Of a DNA stretch of 64,000 nt, positions 4,240 through 54,764 are shown one piece after another. Source of the DNA: a virus; IMG/VR virus record IMGVR_UViG_3300029922_000055, positions 1-64,000 of that record; one strand, 5' to 3'. The translations under genes and the position numbers were made by a program. How positions within the stretch are numbered: the stretch's first letter is position 1; each line of letters begins with the position of its first letter. Below the pieces are notes generated by a model, which saw nothing but the letters and a program-made list of their open reading frames with translations, had not been told where the DNA came from and ran no database searches.

Positions 4240-4305
4240 ATTGATTATCCTGTCAAATCTAGCCCAAAGAATAATTTTCCGAATTGGTGTTTTAATATCC
4301 ATAAG

Positions 4306-6890: not shown

Positions 6891-7063
6891 AAAAGTTTCC
6901 TGTAAAGTTCCCTAGAAGGTTTTCTTAAAATCATATTAAAATTACTATCAGCGAATATATAAAACCAATCATTAATAAATGCAGACTCTATATTTCGACA
7001 ACTATTTAATCCTGGATTCATATCAAAAAATTTATTTTCAATTTTATCAAACAATAGAATCAT
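6887..7063 (-). CDS. Micro-gene array member 9, 58 aa
   Basis: The frame opens at an ATG overlapping the upstream stop (ATGA) and closes with another ATGA overlap. The sequence MILLFDKIENKFFDMNPGLN continues to a polar middle and ends RELYRKLL, a short basic amphipathic helix like the ends of its neighbours. The D-F-K core is only weakly kept (IESAFINDWFYIFADSN). Function unknown. Confidence 0.65.
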   Translation of the reverse strand: MILLFDKIENKFFDMNPGLNSCRNIESAFINDWFYIFADSNFNMILRKPSRELYRKLL

Positions 7064-8364: not shown

Positions 8365-8515
8365 AAAAAGCTTTCCAATTTGTCGGTGGTCTTTCTGTCA
8401 TTATACAATTTGATAAATGATAGTCTAAAAACCATTTTTCAAAACAGGGAATTCTTCCAGAGCACCAGTTTAAGGTTTTAGGATTTATTAAAAAGAAATC
8501 TCGAAAATCATGCAC
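8348..8515 (-). CDS. Micro-gene array member 1, 55 aa, GTG start
   Basis: A GTG at 8515, overlapping the ligase stop by eight bases, opens a 55-codon frame. The protein has a DFRDFF segment right at the N-terminus, a second match CFEKWFLDYHLSN in the middle and the ending NWKAFYDKIF shared with member 2. The GTG start is inferred because no ATG gives this frame. It links the array to ligase translation. Confidence 0.62.
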   Translation of the reverse strand: MHDFRDFFLINPKTLNWCSGRIPCFEKWFLDYHLSNCIMTERPPTNWKAFYDKIF

Positions 8516-10328
8516 AGATATACTCCAGAAACTCCTCTACGGAAAGAATCTTAATTCCTAATTCTCTCGCCTTGGTAGCTTTCGAAGAAGTAGTAGAAGG
8601 ATCCTTAACAACGAGCACTTGAGTATTCTTAGAAACCGAACTTGCTTCTGACCAACCAGCGGCCTCAACTTTTACTAAATCGTCTCCATGAAATCTTACT
8701 CCAGTGATTACATATTTACCTGCGTTTACTGACATCTTTTTCTCCTGTTTAATTTGTTTTAAATTTACGAACTCGAAGAACAATTCTTTTTTGTCAACCA
8801 TTTCGGAAATAACGTTTGAATTGAAATTTGAAAGATTGTTCAATTTGTTTATTTCTGTAGCATCTTCGAAAAACTCTATCAAATCGAACCCAGAATCTAC
8901 AATCTTTTGAGCAAGCCTTTCACCACAACTATTCAGAAAAGTATTGTAGACGATCTTAACATCAACTGTTCCGGAAATATTTTCTAAAAATTTGTTAATC
9001 TTTTCTATATGACTTTCTCCTAGTCCATAAACGTTTCCGGAAAACTTTTTATTATACTTTATCAAATCATATACAGTATAAATCTCTTCGCTTTCAAAAA
9101 ACTTTTCTATAATCTTTTCGGAAAGTCCTTCCGGATAAAAGTATGAAGAAAATGTATAAAGCCTTGACGAGTTTAAATTCTCACAGCTAGGATTTACACA
9201 AAATATATGCTCTCCATTTTGTTCTCCGTTAGAATTACAAACAGGGCATTTAGGAACAATTTCGGAAAAACTTTGCTTAAATATTGTATTAAGATTTTTC
9301 GAAATTGTTCTCTCTACATGAGGAATAATTTCATTGGCTCTAGAAATTTCTACCACATGGTCTGCAAAAACTGGCCAGCAATCCTTTTCTAAAGCCTTTG
9401 CATAGCTTCCTAGACTTGCCTTAGAGATAGTGGCTCCAGCTAATTGAACCGGCTCTAGAATGGCTACAGGAGTTAATCTTTGGTCTTTTCCTATGCTCCA
9501 TTTGACTGACAGCAGTTTTGTATTTACTACTTCATCATCAAATTTGAAAGCGAGATATTCAGGGCCAGTTTTGAAAACTACTCCGTCAGCATCATATGTA
9601 TAATCGTCTTTATATTTTTTCTTGAATGCTTTCACATCAGTAAAAATTAAATTATCTACAGGAATTTGTTTTTCTACATTGAACCAAGTTTCCCAAGGAT
9701 ATTTTTCGGTTATGTCTTCCTTAGTATCTATATTTGTAAATGTATATGAAATAACATCTACCCATTTGAAAATATTCTCCCAATCATCTTGCCTAGAAAT
9801 TGCACCAGCTACAGCATTCCTAGAAGATTTAGAAATATCGAATCCATTGTCTATTGTGTAATTTACTTTTTTAATCGCCGCCTCACTTCGAACAGCAAAG
9901 TTTTCTTTTACGGGAACAGTTTTCGGAAACTTTTTCTCAAATTTCGCGGTCCTGTCTATTCCTATATTATCTTTTCCTCTGGTCGCAACTTTATATTGAT
10001 GCCCATTTTTATATGTGGCTAAAATAGAATTTCCATCAATTTTTGTAGATTGTGTAGTATTGGCATTAAGAAACTTTTTTAAAACGTTTATATCTTTTGT
10101 CTTAATTTCAATAGAACCAACTGGAATAGGATGTTGAGTTTTTTCCTTCTCATCAATTCCCTTCAAAACGTAACCATGGCCGACTTCAGTTAAAATACCA
10201 TGATTAGGATCTAGCTTCCGGACTTGTTCTAACTTTTCGTCAAATTCTTTATCAGTAGCTGACGAAGTTCCCGTATCATAATATTCTTGAGATAGTTGTT
10301 TAATTTCTTCTACTAGTTTTTGTAACAT
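8508..10328 (-). CDS. ligA: NAD-dependent DNA ligase
   Basis: This is a 606-residue LigA-type ligase, slightly shorter than the typical bacterial enzyme of about 670. It joins DNA nicks using NAD+. The adenylation site K96-I-D-G is present, followed by the OB-fold region, a four-cysteine zinc finger (CPVC...CVNPSC, around residues 378-400), helix-hairpin-helix repeats, and a C-terminal BRCT domain (about 530-606). The N-terminal Ia domain (YYDTGTSSATDKEFDEKL) is present, so the enzyme looks complete and active. It is the first gene after a strong early promoter. It presumably replaces the ATP-dependent ligase used by T4 for replication and repair. Confidence 0.95.
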   Translation of the reverse strand: MLQKLVEEIKQLSQEYYDTGTSSATDKEFDEKLEQVRKLDPNHGILTEVGHGYVLKGIDEKEKTQHPIPVGSIEIKTKDINVLKKFLNANTTQSTKIDGNSILATYKNGHQYKVATRGKDNIGIDRTAKFEKKFPKTVPVKENFAVRSEAAIKKVNYTIDNGFDISKSSRNAVAGAISRQDDWENIFKWVDVISYTFTNIDTKEDITEKYPWETWFNVEKQIPVDNLIFTDVKAFKKKYKDDYTYDADGVVFKTGPEYLAFKFDDEVVNTKLLSVKWSIGKDQRLTPVAILEPVQLAGATISKASLGSYAKALEKDCWPVFADHVVEISRANEIIPHVERTISKNLNTIFKQSFSEIVPKCPVCNSNGEQNGEHIFCVNPSCENLNSSRLYTFSSYFYPEGLSEKIIEKFFESEEIYTVYDLIKYNKKFSGNVYGLGESHIEKINKFLENISGTVDVKIVYNTFLNSCGERLAQKIVDSGFDLIEFFEDATEINKLNNLSNFNSNVISEMVDKKELFFEFVNLKQIKQEKKMSVNAGKYVITGVRFHGDDLVKVEAAGWSEASSVSKNTQVLVVKDPSTTSSKATKARELGIKILSVEEFLEYICA

Positions 10329-12490: not shown

Positions 12491-13705
12491 TCAATGTCCT
12501 GTCAGTATATAGTTGTCTGGCAAATTGCCTGATTTTTTAGACGCTTCTGCTTCAACTGCTTGTGTTGTCCAAGTCTCACATCGAATCGGCATCCGTAGAG
12601 CACAAGCAACTCCTTGTGCTATTTGTAAGGCTAATTTTTCTATGTTCTTAGCGGCGTTAATGTCTCTGTCTAGGATAGCATGGCAATGAGGGCATTCCCA
12701 AGTTCTATCTTCTAATGTTAAATCATCATTGATACAACCACATTCATTACAAGTTTTAGAAGAAGGGAACCAACGATCAATTGCTTGAATTTGTTTTTGA
12801 TTCCACACTGCTTTGTATTTTAAGAAATTGATGAACTGACTCCAACCAGCATCTGAAATTGCTCTAGCTAGTTTTCTATTTTTCACCATTCCTTTGACAT
12901 TTAAAGATTCTATTCCTATAAAGTCAAACCTCTTGATTAGGTCTAAAGAAAGATTGTGATGAAACCAACTTCTTTGATTAGCTACTTTTTCATGGACTCT
13001 AGCAACCTTCACTCTTGTTTTCTTGTAACGGCTAGAACCCACCACTTTTCGACTCGGGTTCTTTTGAGTCTTTCTTAGCTTCGCTTGACTCTTGCGAAGC
13101 CATCTTGGATTCTCAATTTTTTCTCCATTAGATAAAATCAAGAAATCTTTCAATCCTAAATCTAATCCTACGATTTTATTAGTTTGTTCAAATCTAGGAC
13201 TCGCTTCTTCTTCTACGAGGATAGATGCAAAATACTTTCCAGAAGGAGTTTTCGAAATTGTTACTGACACGAATTTAGAATTTTTCTTAGGCAAACGATC
13301 TATTCGAATTTCTATGTCTCCTATCTTTTCTAACCAAATTGAATTTTGTTCTAATCTGAATTTTTGATTTGGGAGTCTGAAAGATTGGTGGTTGGATTTC
13401 TTTTTGAATTGTGGTCTACCAATTTTCTTTTTTCTAGATTTTGAAAAATATTGAGTTTTGAATTTTTCAAAATCTCTTACTTTTTGTTGTAGTGCTCCCG
13501 CATTGACTTCCGTCATCCATAAGAATTCTAATTTTAGTTCAGGTGGTGATTTGTAAATTGGCTTAGTGTTAATTTCTTTATCGTATGAATTAAAAATATC
13601 TACCATTTGATTCCAAACAAATCTTACACAACCAAAAGTCTTAGATAAAATTATCTTCTGTTCTTCAGTTGGATAGATTCTATATTTGTAAGCTCGTTTG
13701 GTCAT
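12491..13705 (-). CDS. tnpB: TnpB RNA-guided nuclease (IS200/IS605 family accessory protein)
   Basis: 404 residues starting MTKRAYKYRIYPTEEQ, the classic TnpB opening. All three RuvC acidic positions are present: D182 (GLDLGLKD), E266 (IGIES) and D348 in LDRDINAAKN. The zinc finger is intact (CNEC at 319-322, CPHC at 338-341). TnpB cuts DNA using a guide RNA whose scaffold normally comes from the 3' end of its own gene. The C-terminal 45 residues, from QIAQGVACAL onward, may overlap that RNA. There is no tnpA gene nearby, no SD before the ATG, and only 16 bases lie between its stop and the next gene. It stands between two small membrane-protein genes. Confidence 0.93.
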   Translation of the reverse strand: MTKRAYKYRIYPTEEQKIILSKTFGCVRFVWNQMVDIFNSYDKEINTKPIYKSPPELKLEFLWMTEVNAGALQQKVRDFEKFKTQYFSKSRKKKIGRPQFKKKSNHQSFRLPNQKFRLEQNSIWLEKIGDIEIRIDRLPKKNSKFVSVTISKTPSGKYFASILVEEEASPRFEQTNKIVGLDLGLKDFLILSNGEKIENPRWLRKSQAKLRKTQKNPSRKVVGSSRYKKTRVKVARVHEKVANQRSWFHHNLSLDLIKRFDFIGIESLNVKGMVKNRKLARAISDAGWSQFINFLKYKAVWNQKQIQAIDRWFPSSKTCNECGCINDDLTLEDRTWECPHCHAILDRDINAAKNIEKLALQIAQGVACALRMPIRCETWTTQAVEAEASKKSGNLPDNYILTGH

Positions 13706-13709
13706 ATAA

Positions 13710-14258
13710 CTATTTAATAAAAATATATGCAACCAAAAAAGCGAGCCCAACACCAAAACCTATACCAGAATCTCTCCAAAAATGTTCTTCGGAAACTCTT
13801 ACATTTTTCAAAGAATCTACATTAGTTTTCATTTCGGAAATAGTCTCATCAGCATTTTTAACATTATCTAAGCAAATTCCTAAAAGCGCGGAATCTCTTT
13901 CCATCAAGTATTTTGCTTCTATAGCTTGCTTGGCTTGGTCTTGAGAAATATCTAAAAACTTTGTAGTGTCTTTTGAATAATAAACACTATCAAACAACGT
14001 GACTTTTTTTGCAGAATCTTTTCCGGAAAATACTGAGTCAAGATTTCCAGAAACTTTTTCGAAATGATTGACCACGACTTTCTGCTTGACTATTACAGTA
14101 TCATGAATATAACTCTGCCTATCTTTGTATAATGTATCTACTCTTGCAACAACATTTTGAATAATTTTGGATTCTTTTGGTTGAAAAAATTGCTTCCCTC
14201 CAAAAAACCCTATTAGCAAAGCAACAACAATTAGCACCCACCACATTTTTGTATTCAT
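13710..14258 (-). CDS. Membrane protein with periplasmic helix, spanin-like
   Basis: 182 residues: a strong N-terminal membrane segment (WWVLIVVALLIGFFGGKQFF), a long polar helical region with many D, K and V residues, and a second hydrophobic end (GIGFGVGLAFLVAYIFIK). An anchored N-terminus with an extended periplasmic helix is the plan of inner-membrane spanins, which help disrupt the outer membrane at lysis. The second terminal segment is unusual for that family, so the call is tentative. It overlaps regA by four bases and ends five bases before tnpB. Confidence 0.6.
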   Translation of the reverse strand: MNTKMWWVLIVVALLIGFFGGKQFFQPKESKIIQNVVARVDTLYKDRQSYIHDTVIVKQKVVVNHFEKVSGNLDSVFSGKDSAKKVTLFDSVYYSKDTTKFLDISQDQAKQAIEAKYLMERDSALLGICLDNVKNADETISEMKTNVDSLKNVRVSEEHFWRDSGIGFGVGLAFLVAYIFIK

Positions 14259-44002: not shown

Positions 44003-44653
44003 TTAGTTTGAAGATTCAGGTGTTATCACAGGATTAGAAATATTTCCATTACCAATCTGTGGATCGGTTGGAGAATATACCCAGAAATCATATTGGAAAG
44101 TTGCATTAAACTTTACAGAATCTCCAGCCTGATTGTAATCGATATTTACTTCGGCAACATTCTGCAACCACGCATTGTAAAGATAATACTTGTTTGGTTC
44201 TTGACTAGGATCGGTTCCGGCTCCACCATTTCTATAAGCAGTGATAACAATATGGTCACAAATACCAGTATCGGCAATTGAACCAGCGGCATTGTTTCCA
44301 CGCTTCCTGCTATAATTAGAATGTCCAGCAGTTACATCAAATATCTTTTGCTGCCAAGAATAAAGAAATGTTGCCACACCCTGACTTTCAGTTTCTTCAA
44401 AAGTAATATCCGAAGTATTTGAGAAAGTTGGTTTGCCAGGAAAGAATTGTTTCATGGCTCCATAACTAGATTCTATTGCTTCGTTACCACGTTGAGGAAT
44501 GGTGAAAGAACGTGCTCTTAGAGTAACATCATCAGAAGTCCAACCAGGAATAAGACTCCCAGCATTTATAAAACTAACTTCATAATTATAGTTTCTCTGA
44601 ATATCGGCAAAGTTCCTGATATTCCTTCCTTCTATATATAGTCCACCCGGCAT
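44003..44653 (-). CDS. gp19: Tail tube protein, gp19-like
   Basis: 216 residues, longer than T4 gp19 (163). It has RNYNYEVSFINAGSLIPGWT at the start, then RARSFTIPQRGNEAIESSYG, a conserved F-P-G-K-P segment, and the ending EVNIDYNQAGDSVKFNATFQ typical of tube proteins. Its place right after the sheath gene (three-base gap) is the standard T4 order 18-19. It forms the inner tube through which DNA passes. Confidence 0.85.
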   Translation of the reverse strand: MPGGLYIEGRNIRNFADIQRNYNYEVSFINAGSLIPGWTSDDVTLRARSFTIPQRGNEAIESSYGAMKQFFPGKPTFSNTSDITFEETESQGVATFLYSWQQKIFDVTAGHSNYSRKRGNNAAGSIADTGICDHIVITAYRNGGAGTDPSQEPNKYYLYNAWLQNVAEVNIDYNQAGDSVKFNATFQYDFWVYSPTDPQIGNGNISNPVITPESSN

Positions 44654-44656
44654 GTT

Positions 44657-46426
44657 TTATCCCTCACTCACGGAAACAGAGTCCGAAGAAATTGTTACTG
44701 TCAAACTAATAAACTCGATTGTGTATGTTGGCTGAATATATACAGCAACATTTAAGATATTCTGAGCAATGGTTGTAGAAGTGTTATTCGAATTATCACA
44801 AACAACTCCGAAACTCTGAACACCATTTCCTGCAAGAACACTAGAAAGGAACGCATTTATTAAAGAACTTACACGCTCCCTAGCTTTCACAGTATTTCCC
44901 GTGAACAAGAATCCATTAAGAATTGAAGTAATATTGTCCTCTACATAAATCAACATCTTTCTTACATTCAATCTATCTCTAGCAGTTGTAAGAAGTTGTG
45001 CAGTCTTTTGTCCCCAAATAACTCCGCCAATTCCATTTAAGAACTTGATAGTGTTTAGGTTATATTGGTTGTAAAGAGGACCAGCTTGTGCAGGAGTCAA
45101 GTTTACATTCTGAGTGCCCGAAGGAAGCTGACCAACAGCAATACCAGCAGGAGCATCCCAAGGATTACCAACACGACTAGCTCTTAAAGAAACTTCAGCA
45201 CCATAAATTCCATTTGGCAAGTAAACTCGAACTTTATTGTAACGATCAAACACTAAGTTCCATCCGACATATTTTCCGAAATAACTTGGATTAGATGCTA
45301 CAACAATATTTGAAGAATCTTGTATGATAGCGTTTACCGAAGTAGATGTTAAAGCTGTTGCCTGAATGTATCCAGTAAAATCTAACCTTTGACCAACCAA
45401 AGAATCTAAAGCAGCAATTTCATTAGGATCGGAATAAGAATTCATGGTTCTAGGAGTTACAAAAGCAACATCTACCGGAGAAGTTTCTTTATTAGCAAAC
45501 AATCCCCAAACAGTTGATGCATTTATCGGAGAGAGAGTTCCGGCATCATTTCCACCAGTCAACCCAAAAGCAGTAGTAGTATAAGCAGGAAGAGTCCCAT
45601 CAGTCTTATTACTAGTAACGTAAACATAATTTGAATTCCCATTGATAACAGATTGAATAAACAAATCATTCCCATTAGGATCGTTGTCTAGGAAATTTGT
45701 AGACCCATACCAAGTCTCTACAGGTGAACCAGAAGTTAATGACCACCAAGTAGCATCAAAGTTCTGATTAAAAAGCTTTGTGAAAACCTGAACCTTAAAA
45801 ACTCTATTTCCAACCCTTGAAGCAGCAGAAGAAATAGCAGTGGAATCATACTTGTTATACCAGTCATAGAAACCAGATAAACTAGTTGCGGAAATTGCAG
45901 GTGTCCAAACAGCTACGGCAATGTTGTTTCCAGTAGCGCCAGGACCAATAGCAGCGAATCTAAGACCAGCAGGAGAACCATTATAGATAGTCAAATCGTA
46001 ATTATTGTTTGGCAAGTTCCCATCAGGAAATCCAGCAATGTTAGGATATGCCGTAGAAGCAGCAGCAGATACGGTTCCATATGTTCCGGATGTCGCAGCA
46101 GATGAATTGGTGGGGACAGTTACGTTTGCATATGTCTCGGTTCCATCTGTCAATCTAACGTAATAAAGATTGGTAGTTTCTCTTAAAGCTTCTATCCCAG
46201 CATAAATCCCATAGTCTATTGCAGAAACTAATGGATATGAACCAGACACCATCGGAATACCAAATGTCTGAACTAGTTGTGATTCGCTCTGAACCAAAAC
46301 CTTTGAATTGGGAATGCCCTGAAATGCCCTTCCCATTACCGCCGCATATGACGCATTAGGATTTGACGGAACAAAAGAATTATCTATCTCTTGTAAATAA
46401 GTTCCTGGATAAGTTCCTACAGCCAT
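44657..46426 (-). CDS. gp18: Tail sheath protein, gp18-like
   Basis: 589 residues. YPGTYLQEIDNSFVPSNPN near the start, GRAFQGIPNSKVLVQSESQ, and a C-terminal region beginning GIGGVIWGQKTAQLLTTARD with LNVRKMLIYVEDNITSIL and the final strand TIEFISLTVTIS are all conserved in contractile sheath proteins. The protein forms the contractile tube around gp19. Two late-promoter boxes lie upstream, one an exact TATAAATA. Confidence 0.95.
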   Translation of the reverse strand: MAVGTYPGTYLQEIDNSFVPSNPNASYAAVMGRAFQGIPNSKVLVQSESQLVQTFGIPMVSGSYPLVSAIDYGIYAGIEALRETTNLYYVRLTDGTETYANVTVPTNSSAATSGTYGTVSAAASTAYPNIAGFPDGNLPNNNYDLTIYNGSPAGLRFAAIGPGATGNNIAVAVWTPAISATSLSGFYDWYNKYDSTAISSAASRVGNRVFKVQVFTKLFNQNFDATWWSLTSGSPVETWYGSTNFLDNDPNGNDLFIQSVINGNSNYVYVTSNKTDGTLPAYTTTAFGLTGGNDAGTLSPINASTVWGLFANKETSPVDVAFVTPRTMNSYSDPNEIAALDSLVGQRLDFTGYIQATALTSTSVNAIIQDSSNIVVASNPSYFGKYVGWNLVFDRYNKVRVYLPNGIYGAEVSLRASRVGNPWDAPAGIAVGQLPSGTQNVNLTPAQAGPLYNQYNLNTIKFLNGIGGVIWGQKTAQLLTTARDRLNVRKMLIYVEDNITSILNGFLFTGNTVKARERVSSLINAFLSSVLAGNGVQSFGVVCDNSNNTSTTIAQNILNVAVYIQPTYTIEFISLTVTISSDSVSVSEG

Positions 46427-46450
46427 TTTGATACCTCTGAATTTTATAAA

Positions 46451-46485
46451 ATTATTTAGCTAATTTTTCTTTAGAAGTATTTATA
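46451..46485 (-). promoter_or_regulatory. Two late promoter boxes before the sheath gene
   Basis: On the minus strand, TATAAATA (46485-46478) is an exact T4 late -10 element, and TAAATAAT (46458-46451) follows 19 bases later. Both face the sheath gene, which has AGAGGT as SD. Strong, possibly doubled late transcription fits the high demand for sheath and tube. Confidence 0.6.
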
Positions 46486-46488
46486 AAT

Positions 46489-48114
46489 TTAGTTATAACC
46501 ATTTCCGAAATATATATCATTGTTTTGAGAGTTTTGGAAATTTTGGGGGGTATCTTGGAAATCGTTTGAAAAAGCATTTCCGAAAAAGTTTGAATGAATA
46601 TCTTCCGAACTTAAGAATGTTGGAACTTCTTCATCTGAACCTTTATTAGATTTTCCGGAATCTTTTGCATTAGTTGTTGCATCATAAAATCCAGAGATTA
46701 GATAATACAACCCAATCCACATGGAACAAACAGTATCGTCATTTTCGTTTTGTCCAATTGCTTGCCAAACTCCAGGATTTTTCTCTTCAAATCTACTCAA
46801 TTCATAGAGAGTCTTCATATCATTTATTTGAAGCCAACCATTTTCTATATACTTTTTCATTAGCAAAACACCTGCTAGTTTTGTTTTTTTTGTAGAACGA
46901 ATACCTAGGCCATTCTTATCGAAATTTATAAGTTTGTCACAATCGTATTCGTAAAAAATCTTATCACAAACCAATTCTCCTATATCATTACTTTCAACCA
47001 TCATCTCTGCTTTATTATAATATTCTGAAATACCCACACATATACCAGCAAACGTTTCCGGGTCGGTTTCATTATTGCGAAAAACTGCAACTTGGTCTAT
47101 ATCTTTTTCGGAATTTATTTTTAATACTTGAACAACAGAATAATCAGAACCAGTGCCTCTACTTGGATCGACCCCTAATACATATTCACAGCCATCTATA
47201 GGTAATTCATATATCAGCATTGCTCCATTGTATTTATTTTCTATTGGTGTTCTTGTATCTATTCTTTCTAAAATTCCAGGAGTTATTAAGGTATTTGAAC
47301 TTCCTTGGAATTGGCCCTCATGCTCCTGAAGGAACGCTTGTGTTGTCATATCTTTTTTTGTATCTTCTGCCCATTTTTCATCTCTATCTGGATGGTCTCT
47401 CCAAGTTATTTTAATAGGATAAAAATTGTTTTCTCCTTTAACTGCCTTTGAATAAATTTCATAAAAATGATTCAAGCCTTTTGGCGTAGATACCATAATA
47501 AGCTTTGATTTTTTTCCAGATGACATAATAGAATAAACAGAATTCCAAAATTGCTCCCAGATATGCGGTGGCACGAAACTTGCTTCGTCAAGAAAAACTA
47601 ATCCTGAAGTTTTTCCACGGACAGAATCTGACGAACTAGAAGCAGCTAAAATAGTCATTCCGTTTTCAAACTGAACAGAATTCTTATTCCAACCGCCATT
47701 AACAACCCCTTTTTGAAGCCATAGAGGAAATTTCTGAATCGCTATTTTAATTTTTTCCAAAGTATCTTTGGCTGTTGCTTCTTTGTTTGCTAATATAATA
47801 ATATTGTCATCTTTTTCAAATAGAGAATAATGAGTAAGAAAAATACTAGTCATCATCCCCTTCCCGACCTGCCTAGCTGCCAGAAGACATATGTGTTTTT
47901 TTCCATTTGGGGGATCGGACATAGCTTTTAATACTTTTTTTTGATATCCATACAATTTTACTAATTGCCTACCACCATCAATAGTTTGAATATAAAAATA
48001 ATGTTCCGCAAAATATATTATATCATTTTTACATTTAACATATTCGTCTATTTGTTCTTTCGTTATTACTACCTTTTCTCCAGCGGCGCGAAGGGATGGG
48101 TTTCCTTGATACAT
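46489..48114 (-). CDS. gp17: Terminase large subunit, gp17-like
   Basis: 541 residues, slightly shorter than T4 gp17 (610). ATPase half: Walker A AARQVGKG (79-86), where the usual final S/T is glycine, Walker B LVFLDEAS, and STPKGLNHFYEIY. Nuclease half: GVDPSRGTGSDYSVVQV with the first catalytic aspartate, and MMVESNDIGELVCDKI. It drives DNA into the head and cuts it. The start overlaps the stop of the GIY-YIG gene (TAATG). The ATG is followed by a plausible N-terminus (MYQGNPSLRAAGEKV). Confidence 0.93.
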   Translation of the reverse strand: MYQGNPSLRAAGEKVVITKEQIDEYVKCKNDIIYFAEHYFYIQTIDGGRQLVKLYGYQKKVLKAMSDPPNGKKHICLLAARQVGKGMMTSIFLTHYSLFEKDDNIIILANKEATAKDTLEKIKIAIQKFPLWLQKGVVNGGWNKNSVQFENGMTILAASSSSDSVRGKTSGLVFLDEASFVPPHIWEQFWNSVYSIMSSGKKSKLIMVSTPKGLNHFYEIYSKAVKGENNFYPIKITWRDHPDRDEKWAEDTKKDMTTQAFLQEHEGQFQGSSNTLITPGILERIDTRTPIENKYNGAMLIYELPIDGCEYVLGVDPSRGTGSDYSVVQVLKINSEKDIDQVAVFRNNETDPETFAGICVGISEYYNKAEMMVESNDIGELVCDKIFYEYDCDKLINFDKNGLGIRSTKKTKLAGVLLMKKYIENGWLQINDMKTLYELSRFEEKNPGVWQAIGQNENDDTVCSMWIGLYYLISGFYDATTNAKDSGKSNKGSDEEVPTFLSSEDIHSNFFGNAFSNDFQDTPQNFQNSQNNDIYFGNGYN

Positions 48115-48779
48115 TATTTTATTCTTTGTCCTGGTTCAAAACTCCAACCAAGCTCTTTCCAAGTTTTTCCAATATCACTTTCTTTCAAATCTTTATCATA
48201 AAAAAGACTCCAAGACTTAACGGTATTATCGTTAATAAATCTACATCTATTTCTAATTGTAATTCTACTTAAACCGATTCCTTTATTAGCAAATATTAAA
48301 GATTCGAACTTTCCATATGGCGTAATATAATATCCAATAAATCCAGTATGTTTTGCTCCTGGGTATTTTCCTTTCTGAGCGATTGACATTTTAAGTTTGT
48401 CTTCTGGAAGATGTTGGCGACCCCGTTGTAAATTACCCATTTTAGTTTTATGTTCTTCCGTATGGTGTTTACCTTTGAAACCATTAACAGAATATATTTT
48501 TCCACCCTTACCACCTAATTGTAAATTATATATATCGTCTCTTTTTAAAAATTCTTTATTTACAATCTCAATTTCTTTGTTATAAGCTTCTTCTTTGTTA
48601 TCAAACTCAAAAAGTATATCTTTTCTAAAATTTTTTCTGCCATATTTTTTAAACGCGAATTTTAATGCTTTTCCGCTGCCCTTATAATAATGGTCACGCG
48701 AATCCGAATATTTATGAACACCAATATATATTTTTCCGTTTACTAAATTCGTAGTTTGATAGATGTAATATTTCTTCAT
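48114..48779 (-). CDS. GIY-YIG homing endonuclease with NUMOD3-like motif
   Basis: 221 residues. KYYIYQTTNLVNGKIYIG is the GIY-YIG core in Y-I-Y form. A conserved YKGSGKALKFAFKKYG stretch and E/N residues follow. HTEEHKTKMGNLQRGR is a NUMOD3-type DNA-binding motif, and SLIFANKGIGLSRITIRNRC fits a NUMOD1-type helix-turn. Free-standing enzymes of this type (Seg family in T4) cut related genomes lacking them and spread by repair. It sits directly before the large terminase gene, and no intron is visible. Confidence 0.88.
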   Translation of the reverse strand: MKKYYIYQTTNLVNGKIYIGVHKYSDSRDHYYKGSGKALKFAFKKYGRKNFRKDILFEFDNKEEAYNKEIEIVNKEFLKRDDIYNLQLGGKGGKIYSVNGFKGKHHTEEHKTKMGNLQRGRQHLPEDKLKMSIAQKGKYPGAKHTGFIGYYITPYGKFESLIFANKGIGLSRITIRNRCRFINDNTVKSWSLFYDKDLKESDIGKTWKELGWSFEPGQRIK

Positions 48780-48828
48780 AAAGTTTTCCTAAAAATTTCT
48801 CAAAAAGTCTTTCAAACCTTTTCTAAAA

Positions 48829-48836
48829 CTATTTAT
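48829..48836 (-). promoter_or_regulatory. Late promoter-like box
   Basis: ATAAATAG on the minus strand, 50 bases before the GIY-YIG gene, in a 144-base gap that otherwise holds the rightward promoter of the next gene. Homing genes in T4 often use late promoters. Confidence 0.4.
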
Positions 48837-48888
48837 GAAAGATCCGTCAAGGTTTCCTAAAAAAATCTCATAATCGATAAAAAAGTTC

Positions 48889-48917
48889 TTGACAAACAAC
48901 CCTAAAAGTGTTATCTT
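48889..48917 (+). promoter_or_regulatory. Sigma70-type early promoter, rightward
   Basis: TTGACA (48889-48894), a 17-base spacer and TATCTT (48912-48917). The predicted transcription start lies next to or just before the ATG at 48924, so the mRNA would be leaderless or nearly so. TTGACAAAC and GTGTTATCTTA are shared with the promoter at 893-921. Confidence 0.8.
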
Positions 48918-48923
48918 ATATAT

Positions 48924-49274
48924 ATGAATAAAAATCCAGAAGAATTCCAAAAAGAACTTAACATGCTTTTGATAGAGCCTTTTCTAGAAAATTTAGAAAA
49001 AATTCCAGCAGTCGATATAGAAAGGGATTTCAAACTTTTTCTAATAAGCATAAATTACAAAAACAAGATTCAAATGGATATAAGAATTTACGAAAAACAT
49101 ATAGATTTCTTTTGGTTTGATAAAGATTGTAAACTGTTTGATAATGATAGCTTAAAAATTTATAAGCACAATTTCAAATTATGTTTAAGAGAAGCATTAG
49201 CATTTACAGCAGATAATATATTGGAATTGAAAAAGGAGGCTATTAAGAAAAGAAGAAATTTAAGAAGACACTAA
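48924..49274 (+). CDS. Hypothetical protein, 116 aa, inverted-pair copy A
   Basis: Not recognised. It is the rightward partner of a tail-to-tail paralog pair. Both proteins are 116 residues and align end to end: NPEEFQKELNMLLIEPFLEN against STNFQKELNVMLVDSFFEDF, and both end in K-R-R-x-L-R-R-H. The C-terminus is very basic, which suggests nucleic-acid or membrane contact. It is read from a strong early promoter with almost no leader, whereas its twin is read from the other side. Confidence 0.78.
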   Translation: MNKNPEEFQKELNMLLIEPFLENLEKIPAVDIERDFKLFLISINYKNKIQMDIRIYEKHIDFFWFDKDCKLFDNDSLKIYKHNFKLCLREALAFTADNILELKKEAIKKRRNLRRH

Positions 49275-49275
49275 A

Positions 49276-49626
49276 TCAATGTCTCCTCAAAATTCTCCTA
49301 CGTTTAACCAAAGTTTTCTTCATGCTCTTAAAAACTGCCGTCCAATTTTCTAAAACACTTTTAAAATTTTCTATATCCCAATCGTAGGCAAAATAGAAAT
49401 CATCCTCATCAAAAACTTGGTGCCATTCATTAAAATGATTCACATGAAAATATTTCGAAAACACTTGGACATGCATTCTCACACGGCCTTTATAAATTAC
49501 TCCTATATGTAGTTGTTCTAAATCTGGCAAAACTTCTACGCCTCTTATTTTCTTAAAGTCTTCAAAAAAGCTATCTACAAGCATTACGTTCAATTCTTTC
49601 TGAAAGTTCGTAGAATTTTTCTTCAT
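49276..49626 (-). CDS. Hypothetical protein, 116 aa, inverted-pair copy B
   Basis: Leftward twin of the preceding gene, separated by a single base between the two stops. It has the same length and the same conserved ends (FQKELN near residue 8, RRRILRRH at the end), while the middle has diverged (HVQVFSKYFHVNHFNEWHQV). It lies at the end of the cassette of MSFK-type genes and might be co-transcribed with them. Function unknown. Confidence 0.78.
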   Translation of the reverse strand: MKKNSTNFQKELNVMLVDSFFEDFKKIRGVEVLPDLEQLHIGVIYKGRVRMHVQVFSKYFHVNHFNEWHQVFDEDDFYFAYDWDIENFKSVLENWTAVFKSMKKTLVKRRRILRRH

Positions 49627-49663
49627 AGTTTTCCTTAAATTATTTCAAAAAGTTTTCTAAAAT

Positions 49664-49981
49664 TTAATGAGAAAGTTTCATCAAATGTTTTCTAGTATCT
49701 TTTTCTCCAACAGGTGCGTCATATACGTTATCACTATTGAAAAACTTGAATTTTCTTTTGCCATTTTCTTCTAGTTCTGTAGTTTCTAACCATTCTCCAG
49801 AGTTAATTTCTTCTTCGTGGGTTTCGTTCCATTGTTTCATCTCTGTATAGGAATGATTTAGAGAAAATAGTTTTAGCAATTCATGGGTCTTTTTATTTCG
49901 CATTCCATAACCAATTTTAGAACGACCTGGAAATTTATATTCAGATTCTTCCATTAGTTTTCTGTAAAGTTTGAAGCTCAT
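49664..49981 (-). CDS. MSFK-cassette protein 4, 105 aa
   Basis: Starts MSFKLYRKLMEESEYKF. The opening matches the other three cassette members and ends in L-M-E-E, compatible with T4-type prohead protease cleavage (L-x-E). The rest is charged, with KTHELLKLFSLNHSYTEMKQ and a lysine-histidine tail. It overlaps the preceding gene by four bases. The function is unknown. By analogy it may be packaged in the capsid, but no head genes are visible here to test this. Confidence 0.7.
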   Translation of the reverse strand: MSFKLYRKLMEESEYKFPGRSKIGYGMRNKKTHELLKLFSLNHSYTEMKQWNETHEEEINSGEWLETTELEENGKRKFKFFNSDNVYDAPVGEKDTRKHLMKLSH

Positions 49982-50289
49982 GGAAATACCTTATTTAATT
50001 TTTCTTCTATATCGTTTCTGGAAGCTTCTAAAATGTTTTCTCCATAAATTTCGTCAAACCATTCTCTTGAAAGAACATTTTCCCGATTTTCAAGAACTAA
50101 CATTAGAGAATCTTTATCACCTTCCTCAAGCAAAAGCAACCACTTATCATACCATTTTTGCTGAGATTCTTTAATAACATTTTTAGAAATCTTTCCGAAA
50201 TAGCCTTTAGAATAGTATTTCTCAAAGACTGATTCAAAGATTTCTTGTTTGTCTGTTTTAGCTTTGTAATAGAAGTGTTTAAATGACAT
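49978..50289 (-). CDS. MSFK-cassette protein 3, 103 aa
   Basis: Starts MSFKHFYYKAKTDKQ, sharing the M-S-F-K-x-F-Y opening but lacking the cleavage-type glutamate. The body is helical and acidic (KWLLLLEEGDKDSLMLVLEN). It overlaps the last gene of the cassette by four bases. Only eight bases separate it from the kinase-like gene before it. Function unknown. Confidence 0.7.
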   Translation of the reverse strand: MSFKHFYYKAKTDKQEIFESVFEKYYSKGYFGKISKNVIKESQQKWYDKWLLLLEEGDKDSLMLVLENRENVLSREWFDEIYGENILEASRNDIEEKLNKVFP

Positions 50290-50297
50290 GAAATTAT

Positions 50298-50930
50298 TTA
50301 GTGTTTCTTTTTCGAATAGTGTGTATTAGCTACTGTATTATTAAACCCCAAATCAAGCAACCTAGCTTTTCCATTAAAATCTCCCCAAGAAGCCAGTCTA
50401 CAAATATCTCCTGGAGGCATATCAAAGTTTATCATTAAATCTACTACTTGATAAACTATAGAGTCCTCGTCATTCAGCATTTCTTTAGTTTTTTCGGATA
50501 TATTTTCCTTTTTTATTTTTCCGCGATAATCTAAATCAGCTTCGGAAATAGCTTTTGTAAAATCTTGCCAAGAAACTTTCGAAAGAGCTTGAAATTTGCT
50601 TGGAGTCATCTTGGTTCCTTTTTTCATAATCAACCAAGAACAATCATCTTCTTCATCTTTATCAATCAATTCAGAAATAATATCAGGATACATTTTTTGC
50701 ATTCCCCAATCGCCTTCTGTATTGTTCTGGTCATATCCCTTTTCGTTTTTAGCAAGTTTTAATACATTTCCGTCACCCATGTCATATACAATTCTAGAAG
50801 ATCCGGTTCCAATTTTCGGAAAGTATCTAGCAACGTATTGAGCCTTTTTCGAAAAACTTTGAAAAGTATCTATAGAATCTTTATTAAACTTTTCTTCATC
50901 TTCTTTTAAGTAGAATTTTTTGAAAGACAT
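50298..50930 (-). CDS. Kinase-like fold protein A with capsid-targeting-like N-terminus, 210 aa
   Basis: After MSFKKFYLKE comes a glycine-rich loop IGTGSSR (residues 40-46), a strand with lysine NVLKLAKNEKGYDQN (K58), a hinge-like SWLIMKKGTKM, and near the C-terminus D193-L-G195, in place of the kinase D-F-G. I recall this G-x-G-S-S-R...V-L-K-x-A-x-N-x-K-G-x-x-Q-N pattern from uncharacterised phage proteins. No H-R-D loop is seen, so it may be a pseudokinase or an atypical kinase. It is paralogous to the next gene upstream (three-base gap). Confidence 0.7.
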   Translation of the reverse strand: MSFKKFYLKEDEEKFNKDSIDTFQSFSKKAQYVARYFPKIGTGSSRIVYDMGDGNVLKLAKNEKGYDQNNTEGDWGMQKMYPDIISELIDKDEEDDCSWLIMKKGTKMTPSKFQALSKVSWQDFTKAISEADLDYRGKIKKENISEKTKEMLNDEDSIVYQVVDLMINFDMPPGDICRLASWGDFNGKARLLDLGFNNTVANTHYSKKKH

Positions 50931-50933
50931 AAT

Positions 50934-51569
50934 TTATTTCCTATGTTTCTTATAAAAAGTGTTAAAAAAATCCTTCTGCAAACCCGGATCGAGTATAACT
51001 AATCTATTTCCAATTTTTCCCCATGAAGACGTTTTAATTACATCACCAACAAGCAATCCTAAAGAGAATGTTAAATCCTGAACCAAATCTAAGAAGTGAG
51101 AAGTTTTTAATAGTTCTTTGGTTTCTTCTGAGACATCTTTCTTTTCTTTGTAATTAACTAGTTTCATTTCTTTCATAGCTTTTTGAAAAGTTTTGAAAGG
51201 TATTTTAGAAATCTTTTCGAAAGTTTCCTCATCAACTGGCTTGGCTTTTTCCATAACTATCCAATATATTTTATCACCTTGACATTTCTTTTTTAATGCC
51301 GGAACCAAATCTCCGAAAAGTTTATGGATTTGATCTGACTGTTCCATCAAATTTTGGCCTAATCCTTTTTCGTTCCAGGCCAATTTCAATACAGAATTTT
51401 TAGAAAGGTCGAATACTAATCTGGAACTACCTTTGCCAATTTGATTTAGATTTTCTTTACAAAATTTAATTTTTTCTTCAAATGTTTCTAAAGAATCTAA
51501 ATGCACGAAATTGAATTTACTTTCGGCAAGTTTTTCAGATTCTATTAAATAAAAATTTCTAAAAGCCAT
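50934..51569 (-). CDS. Kinase-like fold protein B with capsid-targeting-like N-terminus, 211 aa
   Basis: First gene of the cassette. It starts MAFRNFYLIESEKLAESK, where Y-L-I-E fits a T4-type prohead protease site. Glycine loop IGKGSSR (44-50), SVLKLAWNEKGLGQN with K62, hinge-like IYWIVMEKAKPV, and C-terminal D194-P-G196 align with protein A over the whole length. Some positions of the DFG-like motif differ (DPG against DLG). AAGGA serves as SD, and a late-type box lies 30 bases upstream, supporting synthesis during head assembly. Confidence 0.7.
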   Translation of the reverse strand: MAFRNFYLIESEKLAESKFNFVHLDSLETFEEKIKFCKENLNQIGKGSSRLVFDLSKNSVLKLAWNEKGLGQNLMEQSDQIHKLFGDLVPALKKKCQGDKIYWIVMEKAKPVDEETFEKISKIPFKTFQKAMKEMKLVNYKEKKDVSEETKELLKTSHFLDLVQDLTFSLGLLVGDVIKTSSWGKIGNRLVILDPGLQKDFFNTFYKKHRK

Positions 51570-51598
51570 TTGGAAAAATCCTTGGAAACATTTTAGAA

Positions 51599-51606
51599 AT
51601 ATTTAT
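51599..51606 (-). promoter_or_regulatory. Late promoter-like box
   Basis: ATAAATAT on the minus strand, 30 bases before the first gene of the MSFK cassette, in a 66-base gap. It matches most of the T4 late consensus. Confidence 0.45.
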
Positions 51607-51635
51607 GGAGATTAAAATCATTTCGGATATTTTTA

Positions 51636-52172
51636 TTACTTTATTTGAGAATCTACTTCGAAATCAACTTCTATAGCATCCAATTGGTTATTATTTTTAG
51701 CATTTGAAATAGACTTTGAAATAAGATTGTCAAGTTCATTTGAAGAGAGATTGAATGTATTGTTGTTCTGAATATTTTGCGTAATGTTTCCAGTGCGTAT
51801 TTGAAATGAATTTTCTGCTCTTAATACATTTAGTTCTAGGTCGGCAACATTAACACACATTTTTCTATATTCTACTACCAAATCTTTACATTGGGAGACT
51901 AAAATTGAGTAAGATTCGATCATACTTGCCGAGAAACCGGGACGGGCCAATTCTTTTTCAACAATATTTTTAACCATCGAGGCAGAATTTAATAATTGAA
52001 CTAATTCTTTTTTAATTATATCTACATCTTGAATTTCAATTTTATTTTTATTATATTTCTCGGTCTGTTTTTCTAAATCTGTTAAACTAGCCATCACTGA
52101 ACGTTCTTGAACAGGTTCGGAAAAATCATTTTCAAAGCTAGTGTCAAGTTTTTTTGAAAGTCCATCGATCAT
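51636..52172 (-). CDS. gp16: Probable terminase small subunit, gp16-like
   Basis: 178 residues, near T4 gp16 (164). The order of features agrees: an acidic N-terminus, a helical core with IIKKELVQLLNSASMVKNIV and LARPGFSASMIESYSILVSQ, then IQNNNTFNLSSNELDNLIS, comparable with the T4 segment IQNATVFMGSPTELMDEI. gp16 forms a ring that recognises DNA and stimulates gp17. It is coupled to the upstream zinc-ribbon nuclease gene by four bases. It lies 3.5 kb from the large subunit, not next to it. Confidence 0.65.
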   Translation of the reverse strand: MIDGLSKKLDTSFENDFSEPVQERSVMASLTDLEKQTEKYNKNKIEIQDVDIIKKELVQLLNSASMVKNIVEKELARPGFSASMIESYSILVSQCKDLVVEYRKMCVNVADLELNVLRAENSFQIRTGNITQNIQNNNTFNLSSNELDNLISKSISNAKNNNQLDAIEVDFEVDSQIK

Positions 52173-53143
52173 TTTTTCAAACCCTCTAAGAACTCTATAA
52201 TTATATCCTTCATTACAAGTTTGTCTGTATATTTTATTTCTAATAATTCTAAATCAGAATCGATACACCATTTCTTTTTTGTATAATCACTTAATTTAGT
52301 TTCTTCTAAGTTTAATATAGCTCTATCCATAGATATTCCACCAAAAGTTGTTGGAAAATAATGCTGAATTCCTTGATATTCTATTAAGCATAAAACTTTT
52401 TCAAACTCATCCAAAATAGCAAAATCAAATCTCAAAACAGCTTTTAGCTTACATTTAGAATTTTTATATTGGGGTTTATTTTTAATATCTAATTCTTTGA
52501 GAATATTAAAAATTGATTTTTCTCCTGTCGAACTTTTACACTTAGGACAACCGCATAATTTATATTTACTTAAGTGGTCATGAGGTCTTTGTGAAAATTC
52601 ATATTTGCACACATTACAAATTAAATTTACTGGAGTATCGGTATTTATATAATGAACGTTTGAATAATCAAAAGCATCGGAGCCATGTTTATTTTTAGAT
52701 TCTTGTATAAATTCATCTTGTGTTGTTCTATTAACGTCTTTGTTTTTTTCAATTGCACATTTTTGACAACCACATTTTTTAATACCTGTATGATCTTGCG
52801 GAAATTGCCAAAAATATTCCTGACAATCATTACAAAATATCTTTATTTTAGTATAATTATTTTTATAATATACTTCAGAATAATTATATTTTTCTGTTCC
52901 GTGTATACTTTGGGCATACACAATATATTCTTTCGTAGTTCTTCTCTTAAGATTTTTACATTCAGAGCAGCCACATCCATTTATGTGATGGCCTGGAAAT
53001 TGCCAAAACTCGTGCCCGTTTGGACAAATTATTAAAACCTTGTATTTATTTCCTTTATAAACTGCTTTAGAATAATCAAAAATTTCATGGTGTGTTGCGT
53101 TAGCTTCATCTTCAAACATTTCTTGTGTTTTCATTTTAGTCAT
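52169..53143 (-). CDS. Zinc-ribbon repeat endonuclease (DUF723-type with Vsr-like nuclease end)
   Basis: Three repeats of about 60 residues each contain Y-x-Y-S-x-V-x-Y, I-x-C-x-x-C/G-H, a W/R-Q-x-P-x-x-H segment and G-C-x-x-C, as in DUF723-type zinc modules that bind DNA. The last 120 residues (VLRFDFAILDEFEKVLCLIE, YQGIQHYFP, SDYTKKKWC) resemble the EDxHD/Vsr-like nuclease of phage homing endonucleases. It is located just before the small terminase gene. The start has GGGAGA as SD. It is probably a selfish element. Confidence 0.82.
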   Translation of the reverse strand: MTKMKTQEMFEDEANATHHEIFDYSKAVYKGNKYKVLIICPNGHEFWQFPGHHINGCGCSECKNLKRRTTKEYIVYAQSIHGTEKYNYSEVYYKNNYTKIKIFCNDCQEYFWQFPQDHTGIKKCGCQKCAIEKNKDVNRTTQDEFIQESKNKHGSDAFDYSNVHYINTDTPVNLICNVCKYEFSQRPHDHLSKYKLCGCPKCKSSTGEKSIFNILKELDIKNKPQYKNSKCKLKAVLRFDFAILDEFEKVLCLIEYQGIQHYFPTTFGGISMDRAILNLEETKLSDYTKKKWCIDSDLELLEIKYTDKLVMKDIIIEFLEGLKK

Positions 53144-53162
53144 TTTAAGTTTCTCCCGATAA

Positions 53163-53221
53163 GTTGGAATGGTTTTCGCAAGGTCCTATTTCAGCCTTCA
53201 TTCCAACCATCGAGCGAAAAC
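53163..53221 (-). ncRNA. Interlocked inverted repeats in the 5' leader, possible RNA pseudoknot
   Basis: Two inverted repeats interleave: GTTGGAATG (53163-53171) with CATTCCAAC (53199-53207), and GTTTTCGC (53172-53179) with GCGAAAAC (53214-53221). The pairs, nine and eight bases, cannot both form nested hairpins. They would make a pseudoknot or two exclusive states. The element lies between a late-type box at 53237-53244 and the ATG at 53143, so it is in the mRNA leader. A weaker CCATC/GATGG pair overlaps it. Confidence 0.55.
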
Positions 53222-53236
53222 TATGGATGGAACATA

Positions 53237-53244
53237 ATTATTTA
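53237..53244 (-). promoter_or_regulatory. Late promoter-like box
   Basis: TAAATAAT on the minus strand, giving a leader of about 85-90 bases before the zinc-ribbon nuclease gene. The leader contains the interlocked repeats. Confidence 0.45.
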
Positions 53245-53304
53245 GTTAAAAAAGGACTTTCGGAAAAATTCTTCAAAACTATTTAGAAAATCTCAAAAAA
53301 GTTC

Positions 53305-53333
53305 TTGACAAACGACCAATCTTTGATTATATT
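53305..53333 (+). promoter_or_regulatory. Sigma70-type promoter for the secreted-protein gene
   Basis: TTGACA (53305-53310), a 17-base spacer and TATATT (53328-53333). The transcript would begin near 53340, leaving about 48 bases of leader with AAAAGGAG before the ATG. Confidence 0.83.
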
Positions 53334-53387
53334 ATTAGAAAGGACTAAAATGGTTCTTAAAAATAAATATCTAAAAAGGAGCACATA

Positions 53388-54764
53388 ATGAAAAGTTTAA
53401 TTTTGAGTCTTTTAATTCTGGTAGGTCTTTCAAAAGCTGCTGATATAAATCTTTCTGGAAAAATTGATTTATCTCAAGCCGGGCGCTCAGCAACAGTTTC
53501 TGTAGTAACATCGACAGGGCTTGTAGGAAGTGTTTCGCAAGATGGTACTTATACTATTACAGGAACAACATCACTTCGTTCTACAAGCATTCAGAAAGAT
53601 TCTCCAAAGATTTCTTGGAAAACTTTCGGAAAAGAGTTGCAAATTACTGGAGTAGGAAATTCGGAAAATTATACAGTAGATGCTTGGACTATTGATGGAA
53701 AGAGTGTCGGGGTTCGAGTTCCTTTCCAAAATGGTATTGCAAAGTTTCCCACATCTTCAGAGAAAGTTTTCGTAAGACTTAACCATTCTGGAAACTCTAT
53801 GAATGTTGCTTCTAGGAGGTTAGTAGATTCAACTTTGGGAACTGTTTACTTTATTGTAAACGATCCTAGCAATGGGGTTGTAAATGATACCCTTGTAGAG
53901 ATTCCTGTTACAAATTGGATTGGGGTTCTTGGTCCTAAGTATATTGTAGGAAGAAATGTAGATGTAACTGTTCCTAATGCTTTTGTAGGAGATACTGTTA
54001 AAGTTGGTTGGTTTAATGTTTATACAAATCCTAGCAACTATTATAGCACCGTCCTAGGAAGATCTTATTCAGGTTCTTATAGCGGATTTGTTTATACTGC
54101 TTATGATTCGGCAAGTTTCGGAAATAATTCTTATCTTTATTCAGCAGTGTCTATCATCAAAAATGGAGATTCTGTAGTAGCTTTTTCGAAAGATCTTGAC
54201 ACAGTTACTGCAAAGGTAGGAAATTTTAAGTTTGATTCTAGCCGATTTGTTACTAAAATTCTTTCGGCACTTGATACTACTTTGACCATCCCTTGGTATG
54301 CGTTTTCTTTGAATGGAACATCTGTTAGTCTTTATTCTAGCGTTGTAAAGCATTTGGATAGTGTCGTTACTTTCGACACCATCACAACGAAAGAAGATAC
54401 AACTGGAATGTTTTTCTCAATATATTGGCAAAAAGTAGAAACATTAAACCATGATACTAGTTTTGAGATTACCGACACAATCATTTCAAAAAAATTATTC
54501 GGAGCATTCATTCATGAAAAGACACACAATCTTCCAGACACATTAAGCATATCGGTTAATGATTGCGGGGCTGAAGAGCTTGTGTACGGGGTCAATTCTT
54601 CTATTGATACTACAATTTTCCTACCAATAAACAATGGGACAAATGGATGCTTAGATCTACAGACGACGAATAGAACGGCAATCATGGGATTAAAGACATA
54701 TAACGCATACACATATATTCAAACAAGCATAGTATATGCTATAACCAAAAAATATTACAAATAG
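53388..54764 (+). CDS. Secreted beta-rich protein with signal peptide, 458 aa
   Basis: The start MKSLILSLLILVGLSKAADI is a typical Sec signal peptide, probably cleaved around residues 17-18. The mature protein is beta-rich, S/T/V/N-rich and contains five cysteine-poor strands-and-loops regions. Near residues 98-145, VDAWTIDGKSVGVRVPFQNG leads into a segment resembling the sorting-type beta domains of secreted bacterial proteins. It is read rightward from its own early promoter with a strong SD (AAAAGGAG), opposite to the surrounding virion genes. It would be exported from the infected cell to periplasm or surface. Such isolated cargo genes often alter the host. The function is unknown. Confidence 0.8.
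   Translation: MKSLILSLLILVGLSKAADINLSGKIDLSQAGRSATVSVVTSTGLVGSVSQDGTYTITGTTSLRSTSIQKDSPKISWKTFGKELQITGVGNSENYTVDAWTIDGKSVGVRVPFQNGIAKFPTSSEKVFVRLNHSGNSMNVASRRLVDSTLGTVYFIVNDPSNGVVNDTLVEIPVTNWIGVLGPKYIVGRNVDVTVPNAFVGDTVKVGWFNVYTNPSNYYSTVLGRSYSGSYSGFVYTAYDSASFGNNSYLYSAVSIIKNGDSVVAFSKDLDTVTAKVGNFKFDSSRFVTKILSALDTTLTIPWYAFSLNGTSVSLYSSVVKHLDSVVTFDTITTKEDTTGMFFSIYWQKVETLNHDTSFEITDTIISKKLFGAFIHEKTHNLPDTLSISVNDCGAEELVYGVNSSIDTTIFLPINNGTNGCLDLQTTNRTAIMGLKTYNAYTYIQTSIVYAITKKYYK

Follow-up and report, generated by a model that had tools for sequence, protein, structure and literature searches.

A late-operon gene and an early-promoter paralog in a variable slot beside the large terminase gene of a T4-type phage

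A pair of convergent genes beside the large terminase gene

On balance, we favor the view that the 64,000-nucleotide stretch of virus DNA analyzed here (the window), which belongs to a 67,680-base virus record and contains a T4-type late block, carries a resident late gene followed by an exchangeable early paralog. The two genes encode 116 residues each, lie on opposite strands, and end tail to tail with their stop codons flanking the single base 49275, exactly as an earlier note on this DNA had described. The inverted layout looks incidental, whereas the pairing of an early with a late gene looks like the real feature. Read in this way, the locus illustrates how small "unknown" genes beside packaging genes may turn over, with one member fixed late and an early-promoter copy replaced between close relatives in either orientation. 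The genes and their surroundings are as follows.

48924–49274, plus strand: plus gene (slot copy), 116-residue ORF, the early-promoter paralog, inverted relative to its neighbors
49276–49626, minus strand: minus gene (resident copy), 116-residue ORF in the late-strand operon, found in all four records
48114–48779, minus strand: GIY-YIG homing endonuclease gene, adjoining the slot (HNH/EndoVII-like gene in its place in contigs L001 and L003)
46489–48114, minus strand: large terminase gene (T4 gp17 type), identified by a profile match, with two allele groups across the four records
44657–46426: putative sheath gene, next to the large terminase gene, read from gene order against T4 and from sequence
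44003–44653: putative tube gene, read in the same way
51636–52172: putative small terminase gene, assigned by position only

A BLASTP comparison of the plus and minus proteins gave 64.3 bits with 39 of 120 identities (E of 2e-19 for this single comparison), and their Smith-Waterman score was 169, compared with a mean of 31.8 and a maximum of 74 in 2,000 shuffles. The likeness extends beyond chance motifs at the ends, because proteins trimmed of the first 13 and last 12 residues still scored 94, against a maximum of 58 in 2,000 shuffles. Overall, the copies are 35% identical; at the DNA level, aligned codons show 52% identity, and synonymous sites are saturated. Judged by sequence, the two genes are true paralogs.

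The interval from the putative small to the large terminase gene holds two PHROG_4301 genes, two small orphan genes, the minus gene, the plus gene, and the GIY-YIG gene. The putative small terminase had no PHROG, Pfam, or phage match. While genes 16 and 17 overlap in T4, two unrelated cargo genes are found between them in Pelagibacter phage HTVC008M, so the gap between the terminase genes is a cargo site elsewhere too. In the reading favored here, the minus gene would be the last gene of a late operon within this cargo site, and the slot would lie right behind it, followed by the homing endonuclease and large terminase genes.

The slot holds different paralogs in different phages

The family was found in four records, namely, the window's own and three IMG/VR contigs (L001, L002, and L003), with two records per slot class, so that correlations among them rest on small numbers. 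The slot behind the minus gene is occupied in all four, always by a member of the minus gene's own family. The arrangement seen in the window recurs in part: in the window and L002, the slot contains the inverted plus gene followed by the GIY-YIG gene, whereas in L001 and L003 it contains a different paralog in direct orientation, i.e., the same as that of the resident gene, followed by an endonuclease gene of the other class. The best PHROG match of the latter is endonuclease VII, and it was classified as HNH by reading of its motif. The three lineages (resident, inverted, and direct) display 29 to 37% mutual identity.

L001, 5407–5757: direct paralog with an in-frame stop at codon 103, which would remove the conserved basic tail

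The direct paralog of L003 is intact, as are three of the four slot copies overall, and the conserved C-terminal tail is present in the intact copies, with a different last residue in L002. For the minus gene, dN was far below dS in comparisons across records. A homing endonuclease gene of either the GIY-YIG or the HNH/EndoVII-like type adjoins the slot, directly upstream of the large terminase gene, in each of the four records. The large terminases of the window and L001 are 99% identical and those of L002 and L003 80%, while the window's protein shares 58 to 60% identity with those of L002 and L003. The terminase alleles thus vary independently, and the four records show every pairing of slot type with allele group. 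As both orientation and type of the paralog differ between phages, the working unit would be the promoter plus the paralog, swapped in either orientation by recombination at an endonuclease/terminase hot spot.

Slot copies lie within near-identity islands

Between the window and L002, the plus genes differ by one nucleotide and by no synonymous change, whereas dS of the neighboring minus gene is 0.26. Likewise, the direct slot copies of L001 and L003 show no synonymous change, with a dS of 0.13 for the minus gene. At the neighbor's rate, the chance of observing zero synonymous changes is 3e-6 for window/L002 and 9e-4 for L001/L003, and the zero synonymous differences thus point to recent spread of the slot copies. 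In both within-class comparisons, the slot sits inside one near-identity island.

48876–49323, unstranded: near-identity island of window and L002, 1 difference in 448 bases, taking in the end of the minus gene together with the plus gene and the plus-gene promoter
L001, 5287–5878: near-identity block of L001 and L003, approximately 592 bases with one substitution and one indel

A scan for near-identity stretches (399/400), which used BLAST pieces of at least 400 columns only and 40,000 of the 40,293 bases of G3, found such stretches at five places between the window and G1, eight between the window and G3, two between the window and G2, two between G1 and G3, two between G2 and G3, and none between G1 and G2. 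The slot island was accordingly rejected as unique proof of homing, since similar islands are common elsewhere among these phages, and the recent exchange of the slot may represent ordinary mosaicism rather than homing. Given the in-frame stop in L001, the slot copy may also be dispensable.

These data bear on the possibility that the slot copy is passenger DNA, i.e., a linked piece that homing or recombination at the endonuclease gene brings with it and that lacks a selected role of its own. The constant neighborhood of a homing endonuclease gene, the interrupted copy in one of four records, and the signs of recent spread all agree with such a passenger. However, the slot copy always belongs to the same family as its neighbor, three of four copies are intact and have promoters and the conserved tail, and the endonuclease bodies, with 44% and 63% protein identity within their classes, did not move with the slot copy. 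We consider this explanation unlikely, though it deserves to be taken seriously.

Barth et al. 2023 (PMC10448857) describe a clustering of endonuclease genes around terminase genes, where they delimit regions of exchange. The slot resembles the HEG islands described there in that cargo lies near a terminase gene and beside endonuclease genes, with sharp identity breaks, and endonuclease genes stand beside an essential gene such as terminase in all four records. Their HEG islands comprise more than 10 kb of high identity, whereas the segments found here span about 0.45 to 0.6 kb with one small gene, and here the cargo is better conserved than the bodies of the endonucleases. In addition, the homing endonuclease SegB can amplify neighboring genes (PMC13096335).

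Early-type and T4-like late promoter motifs around the two genes

The earlier note had ascribed a strong early promoter to one of the copies, and the sequence upstream of the plus gene agrees.

48889–48917, plus strand: sigma70-type early promoter of the plus gene with an extended −10 region (TTGACA-17-TATCTT); the −10 region ends 6 nt before the ATG

The form TTGACA-N14-TGTTATCTT occurs at four exact sites in the window, compared with 0.03 expected even when one mismatch is allowed in the expectation, and these sites precede the plus gene, the NAD-dependent DNA ligase gene (8508–10328), and two other ORFs. Only this specific repeated form is significant; promoter-like sites as such showed no excess over positions 46000 to 53000 (31 versus 32.3 by chance). 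The direct paralog has a promoter of its own, TTGACA-17-TACGAT, starting 9 nt beyond the resident stop codon.

48830–48837, minus strand: T4-type late promoter CATAAATA preceding the genes for the endonuclease and the large terminase
51600–51607, minus strand: late promoter CATAAATA, probably heading the operon that ends in the minus gene

The core CATAAATAGTTYTAGAAA of the late promoter at 48837–48830 is present in all four records. Support for the late promoters comes entirely from a location test of the longer motif [TC]ATAAATA, in which 9 of 15 minus-strand sites fell within 70 nt upstream of 50 listed minus-strand starts (binomial p of 1.6e-8); the simple count of ATAAATAG in the window was below chance (3 versus 7.5). 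No clear promoter could be assigned to the minus gene itself, which is probably part of the operon that starts from the site at 51607. At the sequence level, we infer early expression for the plus gene and late expression for the minus gene. In every record found, the slot holds a second, distant family member with its own sigma70-type promoter, so that one version of the protein would be made early and the other late, and the endonuclease and large terminase genes would restart from their own late promoter. The earlier suggestion of two halves of a switch with different timing thus finds backing for the timing, in the contrast of early-type and late promoters; as for the remainder, we infer that the two proteins do the same or opposing jobs at different times.

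A moron is an independently transcribed accessory phage gene, and the slot copy is similar in having, in silico, a promoter distinct from the surrounding operon (plus gene and direct paralog alike). Unlike a moron, the plus gene is followed by no strong hairpin on its own strand that could act as its terminator (z of −0.64 for the plus strand), and the strong hairpin at its end serves the other strand.

Predicted leaderless starts

Since the −10 region of the plus-gene promoter ends 6 nt before the ATG, this ATG coincides with the predicted +1. No Shine-Dalgarno sequence was seen for the plus gene (duplex energy of −0.4 kcal/mol), and no in-frame ATG, GTG, or TTG occurs upstream of its ATG before a stop codon. 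For comparison, the other three members of the promoter family have leaders of 22 to 31 nt with Shine-Dalgarno-like stretches as read by eye. In a table of start sites, in which m2857 and m13711 were wrongly placed and given no weight, approximately 15 of 52 starts had weak Shine-Dalgarno matches, so a missing Shine-Dalgarno sequence alone does not single out the plus gene. The plus-gene mRNA is probably leaderless in the window. Expression from a leaderless mRNA is known for lambda cI, which the plus gene would resemble in that its start codon falls on the +1 predicted for a sigma70-type promoter; this likeness concerns the design of the start and not the proteins, and the transcription start site of the plus gene is a predicted one.

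A comparable spacing was observed at late genes. Among minus-strand ATG ORFs of at least 90 aa, a TAAATA ending exactly 5 nt ahead of the start codon was counted for 7 of 54 in the window's record, 5 of 45 in G1, and 3 of 30 in G3, the expected counts being 0.05, 0.04, and 0.02, respectively. In the window, these minus-strand starts are located at 4302, 13705, 20480, 33945, 42390, 50289, and 63494, of which 13705 and 63494 are maybe not true starts. The same arrangement was found at none of 56 starts in the 70- to 119-kb region of T4 and at 3 of the 44 plus-strand starts examined in HTVC008M. T4 late promoters extend to −6 relative to +1, and a 5-nt spacer therefore places +1 on the A of the ATG. 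The mRNAs of these late genes are predicted to be leaderless; if true, some late genes of T4-type phages beyond the enteric group are expressed from leaderless mRNAs. In a limited literature search, none of the papers listed dealt, judging by title or opening of the abstract, with leaderless late genes of T4-like phages; one of them, PMC9004378, was also checked in its text.

A terminator-like hairpin forms at the convergent junction

49252–49298, minus strand: junction hairpin with a U-rich 3′ side, built from the two genes' C-terminal codons; its terminator-like character is confined to minus-strand RNA

Folding of the junction gave −26 kcal/mol (z of −5.9) for minus-strand RNA, compared with a z of −0.64 for plus-strand RNA. 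The LRRH codons of the two genes make up the stem, after which the RNA is U-rich. The junction of L002 behaves similarly (−24.3 kcal/mol; z of −4.3), whereas the direct junction of L001 has a z of −0.43, i.e., the strong hairpin is present only in the convergent form. Synonymous shuffles encoding the same protein ends had a mean of −19.9 kcal/mol, and the ends of nine unrelated genes placed tail to tail reached only −5.1 to −15.6 kcal/mol. The hairpin was rejected as a specially selected element, as 11% of the synonymous shuffles attained the observed energy. Together, the two controls indicate that it follows from putting paralogs tail to tail, and two such genes can yield a terminator-like hairpin from coding sequence alone. 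Over positions 46000 to 53000, terminator-like sites are at chance level (3 versus 2.5).

The earlier note had proposed that overlapping convergent transcripts make the two genes antisense regulators of each other. Stated fully, the 3′ ends of the transcripts would overlap and silence each other, forming an early/late switch at the RNA level. This proposal draws on the one-base gap between convergent genes and on the plus strand, where the first terminator-like site downstream of the plus gene is a weak one at 50602, so early plus-strand RNA could run antisense to the late gene. There is also a precedent in cyanophage S-PM2, for which PMC2984593 describes CfrI, an antisense RNA of approximately 225 nt linking an endonuclease gene and psbA; in both cases a T4-like phage may produce antisense RNA next to a homing endonuclease gene. 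In contrast to the CfrI case, both strands here carry paralogous protein genes, and orientation varies between phages. In two of the four records, the slot copy points the same way as its neighbor and has its own promoter, so that convergent overlap is not a conserved trait as in a cis-antisense pair; moreover, late RNA would run into the strong terminator-like hairpin at the junction, and outside the junction the complementary stretches of the region are short (12 to 16 nt). Mutual antisense control as a conserved function is therefore improbable, and we give the antisense pair somewhat less credence than the passenger explanation. If the slot instead holds an exchangeable early paralog, the LRRH-codon hairpin of the inverted form would probably stop late transcription short of the early gene, which it would otherwise cross in antisense.

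PMC2988022 reports that promoters and antisense transcripts can arrive with an invading endonuclease and that T4 segD is a free-standing gene on the opposite strand inside a late head operon. The plus gene is similar to segD in being an opposite-strand gene inserted among T4-type late genes. However, segD encodes an endonuclease and has no known promoter, whereas the plus gene is a paralog of its neighbor with an early-type promoter.

Further explanations for the slot

A more speculative idea, to which we attach little weight, is that the slot is a locus of allelic competition. Each phage would carry one of several early-made versions, which would either enter mixed complexes with the late homologue of its own or a co-infecting phage or block that homologue. 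The versions would be traded together with their promoters, in either orientation, while the homing endonucleases next to them change. An origin by local inverted duplication of a single gene and later divergence, as put forward in the earlier note, is very improbable: the paralogy and tail-to-tail layout stand, and equal length, common end motifs, and adjacent inverted position would suit such an event, but the 35% identity, the saturated synonymous sites, and the third lineage, which occupies the same slot directly in two of four records and shares 37% identity with the resident and 29% with the inverted copy, leave no single local inversion that explains the slot.

The protein family

No above-cutoff match was obtained for the plus and minus proteins in Pfam, PHROGs, NCBIfam, and PADLOC or for the direct paralog in NCBIfam and PADLOC, and a profile search of PDB sequences returned nothing. 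In 50,697 phage records, tblastn with the minus protein gave only four weak matches (E of 1e-2 to 9e-2), and the plus and direct proteins gave none. From viral contigs, profile patterns retrieved only the same three contigs, and from genome contigs no relative; an HMM of A3 applied to 98 loci plus the window, and then to 8 pattern-match loci (three of which were the same contigs), detected no further member.

AlphaFold models were based on five to six sequences. The minus protein was predicted to adopt an α-β5-α architecture (pLDDT of 76), while the model of the plus protein was poorer (pLDDT of 67), with residues 74 to 95 being unreliable. Foldseek searches against PDB and BFVD gave no match at an E of ≤0.001. 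Comparison with frataxin/CyaY-like structures yielded Z scores of 7.0 to 7.3, an rmsd of 3.6, 91 to 93 aligned residues, and 9 to 11% identity, a range which the tool calls common, for a model with a pLDDT of 76; as these matches lie within background, no function was drawn from them. The family protein is thus modeled as a small α-β5-α domain with a conserved basic C-terminal tail.

Other features of the window

The tandem PHROG_4301 paralogs (50298–50930 and 50934–51569, minus strand) contain a GxGSSR...VLKLA motif and appear kinase-like by eye; a homologue in Klebsiella phage K64-1 is annotated as a protein kinase. A further opposite-strand gene among the late genes, at 53305–54764 (plus strand), has a TTGACAAAC-type promoter and is conserved in the contig of L001; its product had no Pfam match at an E of 0.01, and its N terminus resembles a signal peptide by eye. 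The endonuclease gene at 52169–53143 (PHROG HNH endonuclease) corresponds to an insertion of approximately 1.07 kb at 52186–53256 of the window, for which L099 has the matching uninterrupted site at about 6956–6957. A TnpB/OrfB_IS605-type gene is located at 12491–13756 (minus strand) within the structural gene region, and a DNA methylase gene (N6_N4_Mtase; E of 1e-42) occupies 5860–6786 on the same strand.
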